Assembly (NCBI RefSeq): GCF_018143015.1
Contig: NC_054751.1
Span: 32,812,347 to 32,876,346 of the forward strand
Direction: 5' to 3'
Origin: Lytechinus variegatus
Lineage: Eukaryota > Echinodermata > Echinoidea > Temnopleuroida > Toxopneustidae
Length of the DNA stretch: 64,000 nucleotides
In this document: in pieces, positions 30,596 to 36,500 of the stretch
Layout of the letters: every line of letters starts with the position of its first letter
Numbering within the stretch: the first letter of the stretch is position 1
Made by a program: the position numbers and the translations under genes
The notes under the pieces: generated by a model
What the model was told of the DNA's origin: nothing
Database searches by the model: none
The model's input: the letters and a program-made list of their open reading frames with translations, nothing else

Positions 30596-33500
30596 CTAGT
30601 TTTCTTTCTTTTCTTGGTCTTGACTCCCTGAATCCGAGGTTGAATCTGAGCTTGAGTCAGAGCTTGATGATCCTCCAGATGATTCACGCTCTGATGCCAT
30701 CTATAAATAAATATATAAAGAGGGGGAATAAATCAATTTAGGGGTCTACTCTGTGTTTTTATTCATGTTAGGTCTACCTTAGTTGAATTTCTATAACTAT
30801 AATAATTAGATTTATGGAAGTAATTTTAATTTTAACAAGACATGCAAGCATGTATTATTTCTATATCTCTCATTTCAAAATAACAATCAAGTCCAACATT
30901 GCCATCATCACTAACACCATTATAGTCCTCACAACCATCAACACCATTATAGCCCTCATCATCCCTACCATCACCCTGCCCACCACCACCATCAACATCA
31001 CCTAAACTTACTGGTTCGGGTTCAAGCCGGGTTTTCTTCCTGGGTCCCAAGGTTATCACCATTACATCATCAAGATCACTACCACCACCATCATCCCTAC
31101 CAATCATCACCACTACCACCATTGCCACCATCATCATCATCACCACCACTATCACCATCCCACCACAACCAACATTACTACAAACATCACTACCTCCACA
31201 AACACCACCATCTTCCACTCACCTTCTTATAAGCCATCTCGAAGAGCTTAAGTGATGCCTGTTGTAAAGCAGATGAAGCTTCCCTGATGTCTTTGGGACT
31301 CTTGTTGTCCTTGTCGGCTAAGACTTCCTTGACATTGGCAATCTGTTCTTTGAGTTTACTACATTCCTCTTCCGGTAACTGATCCTTGAACTCCTCCATC
31401 TTGGTCTCAGTGTCATGGATGATGTTTTCAGCTGAGTTCACAATCTCAACACGCTCCTAAGATATTCCAACAACAGCAGAATTAACAAAGTTCAAGCTCA
31501 TGTTTTGAAGTCTATCATTCTTTGACAATTATCCATAACTATTTTGTCTTACTATGAAAACTACTCTTTTGTTACAAATTCAATAAGGGTCACAAAGTTT
31601 CAAGCCTCGAAGAAACCAAGAAATAATGAAGCAAAAATTTCACTGCACCCACATGTATCATCAGAGGTATTCACAGTGACTTGTAGAAACTATCACAGAT
31701 GCAAATATGAATACAACCATTGACGTTCAAAACAAACATTCAGACACTTTACAAATAACTTTGCAAAATCAATGAATAATATTCTGTTTAAAATTGAGGT
31801 GATCCTCGTTTCATTTTTCTTTGCTTCCTAGCTCTCATCTTTTCTCATCATGCTCAGAATATGATTCTCCACATACCTCAATCAGGTTGTGCGGTTGACG
31901 AAAAATTAGTTTTTGTACCATCATTGCATGACAATATAATCTTAATTACAATATACGTACAAGTAAATATTCACGCTCTCTACAATTCATTTCCTTTAAA
32001 CTTGGAATTAATTAGCCAAATGGATACAGAAGAGTGTGTTGGCTACAAGAGATTATCATATAGTATACTGGCATTCATGAGCGACAAAGCGACAATCTTT
32101 TAACAAACCTTCTTGATTTTGTCCTCGGCAGCAAATTTCTCTGCAGCTCTAACCATGTTCTCGATCTCATCATTGCTAAGACCCCCAGATGACTGGATTA
32201 CAACTGAATGAGAAAAACAGGAACACAACCTTATTAAAAACTGAATCAGAGATATAAAATCTAGGGTCATATAAGTTCATATCCCATCAGAAAGTATTTT
32301 GCAATTGAAAATGATAAGGCGAATTAAGTGAAATGTACACCCCCCCACAGCAATCATCCTATATCCCTTTCTCTACGTTGCCTGATTCTTTGCACCTTCC
32401 ATCCTCAAACAAACCCTAAATTGAATATTCGTACCACTGATTATATAGCCATGGAATATCAATACCAAGTACATTTTGAAAATACATGCCTAAGGCCCAT
32501 ATTCTGAAGTCCATTTAACTTTGACCATGGTCTAACTCTGTGCTAAAATTATTGAAGGAAGACAATGTTGAATTCCTTTAACATTGTATATGTCTTAAGT
32601 TTATTCCTAAGGCTTCATGGTTATAAACAAAAGATTATTCCCAGACTGGTTTAAAAGATATTAGTCTCAATGAGGTGATATATTGATCCAGCACTGTTAA
32701 AGGTTTGTGTTACAGACCAAATTTCTAATTAAACCAGGATATGTATATATTGTACTGTATTCTGTAATACCATCTTTACACCGTTTGTATTGCTCTTTTT
32801 ATTAAGTGTGGAAATAAATGAATCAATCAATGAATTGTTAATTGATTTTAATTGAAATAGTTTATTAAGAAAACTTCATTGCAGCCGAAGGCTGAATTGC
32901 AAAATTCTGCACAAGGTAAAATACAAAATATATACAATAACAATGACTATAACAAAATGACATGTAAAAGTAATAAAATAAATGTTATATGTTGAAATTT
33001 AAGAAAGGAGAAGAGTAAAATAATTGTATACATGGGATAACAGTAATCTTGGATAATTGTAACCACAGTATTATTCTGTGAAATAAAGTCAGTAAGTAAT
33101 ATGCTTGCATGAATAAAATAACAGAAATTATAAATAAATGGTACACATGGTACATGTATTTCTTTAAAGAATTGAAGATGAAATATAACTGTGCCGGAAT
33201 AGGGGAGAAAATGAAAAGGATGTCGATAAGGTTGGTAAAACTCCTCAAAGGGATTTTGTCAATAGGCGGTGCTGCACCATCCCGAGTTTGCTCAATCTCG
33301 AGATTTTAGCCCGATCAGCCCTCTTTGCGATTAATCTCGAGATTCAAGAAACCCCGTCTCCACCATCGCACGAAGAGCGATTCTTGCTCGAGCGAGGCAA
33401 CAAGCCCGATATTCCGAGCATGCGCACTTTCGATCTTGGAGTTTCAACGGCCCGCGCTTTTGAATAACTTCCCGCGATATGCAATCAAGTCCATGTACTC

Positions 33501-36500
33501 TTTCGCCGAATTCGACCGTTGTTATGCAACAATCCTCTCAGCTCAGCCGCGCTATAATTATAAGCGAGTGAAGTATTCTTCGTTTAATATGATGGCGGAC
33601 TCCGAGGCAACGACAGAGGGGGAGAGGGAGAGAGGGGAGGAAAGACATGAAAGAAATGCTATTTGCTCACATTTTGCGAAGGAATAAGACGACAATGCTG
33701 TCAGTATTGTTATTGACTATGACCATCGTCGATAATGAGCGCCTCCCCCATCGGTCTGGTCTCTCCCAAAATCCATTCACGGGGGGCTTGACACCATCGT
33801 TGCTGATTGGGGAATTGATGAACGCTATGATAAAGTTGACTTTCGCATGCGTTCGGTATAATCGCTGTTTATGTTTTACCAAGGCGGAAATGGAACGCGA
33901 ATTGCATTATGGACTGAAGGTCATGAATAAATTAACCCGAGTCCAAACCCGAGTGCGTCTGCACCTACGAATTAGCGCGATAATTCGTAAATAGCGCGCT
34001 ATTTTGCAAATAAACCCGAGTTGACTTGGGATTGCAATCTCGAGATTAATCCTACGAACTAGCGCGATAATTGCGTCTGCATTACAAACAATCTCGAGAT
34101 TTTTCAGATCGGGATAATTTGCCGGATCAGAAATAGCGCGCTAATTTGAAAACTCGGGATGGTGCAGACGGCCCTAATAAGTGTATTTTTTACCTGGCTT
34201 GCATGGAAATAAAGAGATATCATAAATCTAATGATTGATTAAATATTTTCTGGTTGTACATGTATGAACATGGAATTGTATATTAAACAATTATACGAAG
34301 ATGGGATAAATAATCAATATGGGCCTTCATTCATTGGCCCATATTCTGAAGTCTGGTTTAACTTAAACTCAGGTTTAAAGTTTTGGTTAAGTATGGGAAG
34401 CCAAAAGTATCAAAATTTTTTATGTTGTATGTTTCTTATGTTTACTGTGCTATTTCCTGAGTCATCGATGGTGAAGACAATCATCTATTTATACTTCCTA
34501 GACAAATATGAATGATTTGAGAGTTAAATGAGTTCAAAAATGATAACTCTACTGTCAGTGATTTATGTAACAATCGGCTGTCCATAATTAACCACAACTT
34601 AAAACTTGAGTTTAAGTTAAACCCGACTTTGGAATACAGGCCTTTCAATCTAAGATGTAACTTACTCTGTTGTTCCTTTCCAGTTCCCTTATCCCTTGCA
34701 GATACATTCACAATACCATTAGCATCAATATCAAAGGTCACTTCAATCTGGGGTACTCCACGAGGGGCAGGAGGGATACCAACCTGTACAAAGCAAAGAA
34801 TATCATTTTCTTGGTTTAATCAAAGGTTTCTACTGCTTACGGATAACTTTAATTTTTTTTTCAATTTTGAGATACAAGGTTTCATCTGGCCCAGCCAAAG
34901 TATGCATCAAATAATCAGATGGATACTGCTTTTTCCATATAATGGATGTAAAGACCACCGCACACCTTACGACTGTTCGCGATCTGATTTTGGAACAAAT
35001 TGCATTTTGCTCATTTTCTGAAGATGTGAATGGATTATATAACTTTACGTGAGGTTAAAATTAATTGAAATAATAATATCATAACCATTTTGAAAGATTG
35101 CAAGCCCTTATTTTGGAGTAAAGTCCAATAAGTTTCAATTCCTAGCCAATCTTACAACTGCTATGACGTCATTACGCCTAGATATTAAATTCGCTTTTAT
35201 TCGAGGAGGGATGATACCATAGTCACAAATTTGATCATAGGTATTTGTACAATGATTTAGAAAATTACACTGTAAGATATTCCAAGTCTCCATATTAGCA
35301 TCAAATTCTACTATATTCTATTCTGAAATCGGGTAGCAGACCAGTCGTAAGGTGTGCCATCGCCTTAAGACTATTAAAAAATCATATCTCTGGCACTATG
35401 ATAGTGACACTGGCAACCATGCCTTTTCTTTATATGTTTGTCAAACACAAGTGTCTCATGAAATTCTCAGAGCCATATTCCTGACCACTTCATGAAATCC
35501 CAGGACATGTTTGCTTCAGTCAATCAAAATTCTGTAGCTTTTGAAGAGTAGCTTTTAATTCATATTAAAGGGTACTTACGATTCTCATCTCTTTATTATC
35601 ATAAAATTTGACCTCTGAGGTTGAAAGCAATTCTGCTTACCAATTGAAACTGTCCAAGAGTCTTATTATCTAGTGCCATCTCTCTTTCTCCCTGACATAC
35701 TTTGATCTCTACCTGAGTCTGGCCATCAGCAGCTGTTGAGAATACCTACAACAGAAAAGAGAATACATCTCATAATAATAATAATAAATGGCATTTGGAT
35801 AGCACACATATCCATCTTATTAAATGTTCAAGGCACTCACATATTACCCAGCTAAGCTGGTTTACCAATACCAGTGCTCACAGCTTTTAGCTTTTTGAGA
35901 AATTACTTCCTTCCAGAAATCCATTTACCTCACCTGTTGGTGGGTTGTTTGTAGCTGGTGCCCTAAGCCTGAAAAATATTTGATATGATTGCTATATGCA
36001 TCATGCTCAGATAAGTATTTCTCCACATACCCTTTGGGGGTAATGCGGTTGACGAAAAATTTGTACATGTACCATCATTGCATGATTGCTGAATGAGAAA
36101 GATCTTCAAAGAGGGATTGATCTCATGACACTGGTCTAACTTAAATTGGATCACCCCCTCCATCCCCCATTTGCTTGAACTTACATATAGTACGCCATTG
36201 AACAAGAAAATAGATAATTGGCGCCTCATAAATGCTAAATATTTTATTAACTTGACCTCACTTACACTAGGCTGATTTTAATCAATCAATCATGATTTCC
36301 TGCAAAAGGGCAACATCAAACAGGGTTAAGTTAATGACAAAATAGTGTGAAAAAAGGCAGGTCCATATAATAACCAACTTGTCTATGTCCACCCCTTCTC
36401 CATTCCTACTTCGCATCAATAACTGCTCAAGCCATGACAGCATTACAATTTTTCATTGAACTAGAAAGCAAAGAAAAGTCATTTCAGAATGGTCTCACAT

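Follow-up and report, generated by a model that had tools for sequence, protein, structure and literature searches.

Which small nucleolar RNAs (snoRNAs), if any, are housed in the HSPA9 introns of the sea urchin Lytechinus variegatus is the question raised by a window of 64,000 nucleotides (NC_054751.1, positions 32,812,347 to 32,876,346), the whole stretch of DNA analysed here, where two short elements with the marks of box C/D snoRNAs, termed copies A and B, lie in two introns of this gene. In human, SNORD63 sits in HSPA9 (PMC7812721; this and the other papers are cited for the passages available), and an earlier note on this DNA had raised the possibility that snoRNA hosting by HSPA9 is conserved over deep deuterostome distance. 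We hold with good confidence, judging from their sequence features, that A and B are SNORD56 (U56)-type C/D snoRNAs carrying a guide for C517 of 18S ribosomal RNA (rRNA).

Two box C/D elements in HSPA9 introns

HSPA9 was recognised as the host, on the same strand as the two elements, through alignment of E. coli DnaK to ten blocks of the minus strand, and the joined C-terminal exons gave 'Stress-70 protein, mitochondrial' (9qid) as best PDB match (E 9.5e-134). The earlier note had placed two C/D candidates of 84 and 85 nucleotides on the host strand in two HSPA9 introns, which was borne out by the DnaK alignment and by a pattern search, as ATGATGG-N(50-75)-CTGAGCATGA had just two matches in the window, each of them on the minus strand (31848-31924 and 36001-36078), and the same C-box/D-box-plus-stem pattern matched in none of 100 shuffles. 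The features are as follows.

31457..32108, minus strand: HSPA9 intron with copy A, 652 nucleotides, GTTTGT...CTTAG, GT..AG borders
31848..31931, minus strand: candidate C/D snoRNA copy A, 84 nucleotides, inside HSPA9 intron 32108..31457
31926..31931, minus strand: copy A 5' terminal stem TCATGC, pairs with GCATGA at 31848-31853
31918..31924, minus strand: copy A C box ATGATGG
31896..31906, minus strand: copy A D' guide ATTTTTCGTCA, 11 base pairs (bp) with 18S 514-524
31891..31894, minus strand: copy A D' box CCGC, degenerate; the fifth nucleotide upstream pairs with 18S C517
31868..31874, minus strand: copy A proposed C' box ATGTGGA, by eye
31854..31857, minus strand: copy A D box CTGA
31848..31853, minus strand: copy A 3' terminal stem GCATGA
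35746..36657, minus strand: HSPA9 intron with copy B, 912 nucleotides, GTATGG...TGTAG, GT..AG borders
36001..36085, minus strand: candidate C/D snoRNA copy B, 85 nucleotides, inside HSPA9 intron 36657..35746
36080..36085, minus strand: copy B 5' terminal stem TCATGC
36072..36078, minus strand: copy B C box ATGATGG
36050..36060, minus strand: copy B D' guide ATTTTTCGTCA, 11 bp with 18S 514-524
36045..36048, minus strand: copy B D' box CCGC, degenerate
36022..36028, minus strand: copy B proposed C' box ATGTGGA, by eye
36007..36010, minus strand: copy B D box CTGA
36001..36006, minus strand: copy B 3' terminal stem GCATGA

Both copies run in the same order, from TCATGC and ATGATGG through a variable spacer, the invariant AATTTTTCGTCAACCGCA, a variable inter-box stretch, ATGTGGA, GAGAA and another variable stretch to CTGA and GCATGA. 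The C box departs from the RUGAUGA consensus at its last base and the D box is CTGA in both, while the D' and C' boxes were assigned by eye. The stem, boxes and internal block that had been described as common to both were found again, with the stem one pair longer than claimed: it spans 7 bp in both copies, the extra pair being A-U in copy B and G-U in copy A, and 6 bp when the elements as delimited here are folded computationally. A strict scan of both strands, which required C and D boxes and at least 5 bp of terminal stem, returned five candidates, among which the 7-bp stems of A and B were the longest.

Aligned with each other, the copies are identical in 67 of 85 columns, and the adjoining 100 nucleotides match at chance level (26/100 positions on the 5' side and 27/100 on the 3' side). 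No difference falls in the 45 columns taken up by stems, boxes, guide, D' and putative C', so that all 18 sit in the remaining 40; the invariant parts are thus mainly the boxes and the D' guide, and the spacers and the D-side guide vary. The ends of the inter-box stretch can pair with each other (ACCU/AGGU in A and ACCC/GGGU in B), one pair being changed on both sides. A blastn search with each element found no third copy in the window, the remaining matches covering only 12-23 nucleotides (E 0.045 to 0.55), in agreement with what the earlier note had reported. From these features A and B are very probably box C/D snoRNAs that form a diverged pair.

A common probable guide to 18S C517

The largest block common to A and B contains AUUUUUCGUCA just upstream of CCGC, and the longest perfect complement to 18S rRNA in both copies is the same 11-mer, which pairs with 18S 514-524. 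The guide ends one base before CCGC, and if CCGC is the D' box, the nucleotide at N+5 is C517 in both copies. The 18S used here is a working version of the human sequence, 1869 nucleotides long, which has the expected base at all 39 sites of a working list of methylated positions, and coordinates follow human numbering. Targets were sought in 5301 letters of working human sequences of 18S, 5.8S, 28S segments, U1, U2, U4, U5 and U6, an incomplete set, where the C517 duplex was the best match with a score of 11.0. Three or four other matches per copy for the D' guide scored 8.3 to 8.9, and the single 28S match of either copy (copy B, 8.3, with a mismatch) lies elsewhere than the SNORD63 stretch. 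As a positive control, the Rfam SNORD63 consensus found its own 28S stretch GATGATGTGTTG with a score of 11.3, and our working SNORD56 sequence found 18S 514-525 with C517 at 12.0; the noise level can be read from the D guides of SNORD63 and SNORD56, which gave matches up to 9.2 and 10.6, respectively.

The register was also compared across the window. Of the 1867 D/D'-like sites on both strands, four lie next to an 11-bp duplex with 18S, and in only two of these, the sites of A and B, does N+5 fall on an 18S nucleotide listed as methylated; the pattern, CTGA or C[ACT]G[AC], was set with the D' box already in view, and these counts are therefore descriptive. When the guide region of copy A was shuffled, a methylated nucleotide fell at N+5 beside an 11-bp duplex in 190 of 200000 trials. 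The target stretch lies within a primer that is presented as universal for the 18S of eukaryotes (PMC7004997, PMC5055339). Searches with eukaryotic rRNA patterns gave no match in viral contigs and none in the genome contigs searched. A484 of 18S, the SNORD16 target, was our first idea for the site and was dropped, since counting on the working 18S puts the guide at 514-524 and the site at C517.

Relationship to SNORD56

In human, U56 (RF00275) guides 18S Cm517, and the equivalent position for AtU56 is Cm471 (PMC3511168, a table row). The 9-nucleotide 18S stretch from T514 occurs exactly in SNORD16, whose nucleotides 76-86 can pair with nucleotides 19-29 of SNORD56 (PMC5612246), and human SNORD56 should therefore carry the same guide as A and B. 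Alignment of the interiors to the working SNORD56 sequence scored 42 (A) and 39 (B), values reached by none of 2000 shuffles for each copy; this score includes the guide, which accounts for most of it. The SNORD56 sequence that we take to be correct fits the published numbering at nucleotides 19-29, and its C box is presumably ATGATGG, the same as in A and B. Beyond the guide, the alignments take in the D' box with its context AAC(C/A)GCA, then the stretch between the boxes, and finally the region of C'. None of the six other snoRNA consensus sequences tried beat all 2000 shuffles for either copy. The five besides SNORD63 had interior scores of 14 to 27, the nearest being reached in 18/2000: for copy A, SNORD121A was reached in those 18 shuffles, SNORD96 in 32 and snoR38 in 94, for copy B snoR38 in 24, all of them nearer than SNORD63, and the interior similarity of snoR64 and SNORD11B was at chance.

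On the proposed mechanism, each snoRNA would be released from the spliced HSPA9 intron and a C/D small nucleolar ribonucleoprotein (snoRNP) would assemble on the C/D and C'/D' motifs, whereupon the common D' guide 5'-AUUUUUCGUCA-3' would pair with 18S U514-U524 and direct 2'-O-methylation of C517. Boxes, stem, intron location, strand, common guide and the 11-bp complementarity to the working human 18S are observed in the DNA; transcription, processing, snoRNP assembly and methylation in the animal would follow on this proposal. The two copies presumably arose by duplication, may act redundantly and may share a common ancestor with SNORD56.

Several observations weigh against the SNORD56 assignment. 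Neither copy has an Rfam match at gathering thresholds, and RF00275 is not among the permissive Rfam matches up to E 10, where the score of the model itself is not shown, so that membership rests on guide, register and interior similarity; we think that the SNORD56 match is too short for the Rfam model to score well. The 18S sequence, the list of methylated sites and the SNORD56 sequence are working versions and not database records. An 11-nucleotide 18S complement occurs somewhere in 345 of 12784 window stretches of 85 nucleotides, in 423/20000 (A) and 404/20000 (B) shuffles of the elements and in 332/20000 shuffles of the common block; complement length alone is thus unconvincing, and register, box and the identity between A and B carry the case. 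The CCGC taken as the D' box is degenerate. When the free RNA is folded computationally, the C box is paired with bases of the guide, and D' with C', so that the guide would be open only in a protein-bound form, an alternative that the proteins may impose. Finally, the unrelated flanks are no proof of selection, as they would be expected equally if only the RNA had been copied.

Alternative readings

The elements might be C517 guides that arose independently of SNORD56 and converged on the same site. The silence of the permissive scans on RF00275 and the different host gene speak for such an origin, which we nevertheless regard as unlikely, since the similarity to the working SNORD56 sequence passes beyond the guide into the D' context AAC(C/A)GCA, the inter-box stretch and the C' region, and the C box is presumably the same as in SNORD56.

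It had also been suggested that the paralogues have diverged targets, which would be reached through the D-box guides, in addition to C517 or in its place. The stretches that precede the D box do differ between the copies, as described; the D' guide to C517 is identical in both, and a rough scan of the D-box guides of A and B found no target scoring at least 8 in the incomplete human set of 5301 letters. We judge diverged targeting to be very unlikely, and the pair resembles redundant isoforms of a single guide for Cm517.

Still less probable is that A and B are pseudogenes, or resemble snoRNAs by chance, and give rise to no snoRNA. The degenerate D' box would fit such a history, against which stand the agreement of the two copies in boxes, 7-bp stem, guide and D' despite their different spacers, and a fold that was equalled or bettered in only 6/200 shuffles of copy A and 4/200 of copy B (z -2.0 and -2.6).

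As for SNORD63, its Rfam model (RF00154) scored 17.8 bits for copy A and 16.8 bits for copy B, and both copies are far below the cut-off of 43 in this check, which the earlier note had proposed. The E-values of 0.32 to 1.2 are in the same range as those of other C/D models; snoR31, snoR64 and snoR38 ranked above SNORD63 in bits for copy A and in one scan of copy B, and snoR64 and snoR38 did so in the second scan of copy B. The SNORD63 D' guide AACACAUCAUU, directed to 28S, is in neither copy, and the interior similarity (scores of 22 for A and 24 for B) was reached by 218/2000 and 46/2000 shuffles. The least probable of the readings considered is that A and B are orthologues of SNORD63, deeply conserved in the ancestral host gene and directed to the SNORD63 site in 28S: the shared human host gene, the weak Rfam scores and the copy B interior score favour this reading, and it is largely refuted by the different guide, with the better bit scores of two or three other C/D families per scan, the weak interior similarity of copy A and a sole 28S match outside the SNORD63 stretch adding to this. 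The link to SNORD63 drawn in the earlier note is not supported. The HSP70 host and the C box ATGATGG had also suggested U14 as a candidate, which was set aside as the U14 family does not occur in the Rfam scans, gathering or permissive.

HSPA9 as a host of snoRNAs

Copy A begins 177 nucleotides after the 5' splice site and ends 391 nucleotides before the 3' splice site of its intron, the corresponding distances for copy B being 572 and 255. A 9-nucleotide direct repeat, AGCAATCAT, is present on the minus strand at both ends of copy B (36082-36090 and 35985-35993), where it overlaps the stem, and may be due to chance or be the trace of an insertion. Retroposition was considered as a possible origin on account of this repeat, but no poly(A) was seen after copy B.

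Reads of small nuclear RNAs and snoRNAs have been counted in sea urchin and sea star, the snoRNAs being unnamed there (PMC3247247). Among the matches listed in our literature search of open papers we met no snoRNA in HSPA9 outside vertebrates, which is no proof of absence. It has been argued that intronic snoRNAs move between broadly expressed genes and that unrelated snoRNAs occupy orthologous introns, a mobility under constraint for which the name 'constrained drift' was proposed (PMC3511168). Our finding fits such movement between introns and adds a case to it, and does not fit conserved hosting of SNORD63. Here a guide to one 18S site would have been retained in spite of a different host gene, and a host gene shared with a known vertebrate snoRNA appears a poor basis for naming a snoRNA. 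The analysis also proposes a target and a mechanism for two RNAs that Rfam does not list.

A more speculative possibility, which we advance tentatively, is that HSPA9 is a recurrent harbour of snoRNAs in animals, its introns having been colonised in different lineages by snoRNAs of different ancestry, of the SNORD56 type here and SNORD63 in human. If this were true, the host relation would recur while the resident RNA does not. In a bolder form of this idea, SNORD63 would descend from a SNORD56-type resident of HSPA9 by replacement of its guide.

Other features of the window

Further features were observed in and around HSPA9. At 42535-43168 a tandem array with a 70-nucleotide unit adjoins and in part overlaps the HSPA9 exon block 43258-43055; its repeat family has seven members of 214 nucleotides at steps of 70, five of which are identical counting the reference. 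Inside an HSPA9 intron, the segment 33268-34169 has ends that look by eye like inverted repeats (GGTGCTGCACCATCCCGAGTTTGC and GAAAACTCGGGATGGTGCAGAC) and may be a transposable element of the non-autonomous kind. Two occurrences of GGCCCATATTCTGAAGTC, at 32494-32511 and at 34336-34353, were seen by eye within a single HSPA9 intron, and may mark the edge of another dispersed repeat. A CAT/CCA-rich stretch of low complexity (plus-strand reading) occupies 30903-31212, just downstream of the HSPA9 exon starting at 31456. At 1700-2110 there is a minus-strand open reading frame, which seems to resemble the start of pantothenate kinase.

Comparison with known box C/D snoRNAs

With SNORD63 (U63, RF00154) the two elements share the box C/D type and the location in an HSPA9 intron, whereas guide and target differ and the interior similarity is weak. 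AtU56 of Arabidopsis, guide of the equivalent 18S position Cm471 (PMC3511168), is likened to them by target. The closest likeness is to SNORD56, with which A and B have in common the core of the D' guide and the N+5 register at C517, and which they resemble in D' context and interior. They differ from it in a longer spacer between C box and guide, in the D' box (CCGC against what is presumably CAGC) and in the length of the duplex with 18S (11 bp against 12). Their location differs as well, as A and B are found twice in the same gene, HSPA9, whereas human SNORD56 is described in NOP56, with further human hosts given in Table 2 of the same paper (PMC9454646). Host location does not define the SNORD56 family, and copies A and B are most likely a known kind of RNA in a host gene different from that of human SNORD56.

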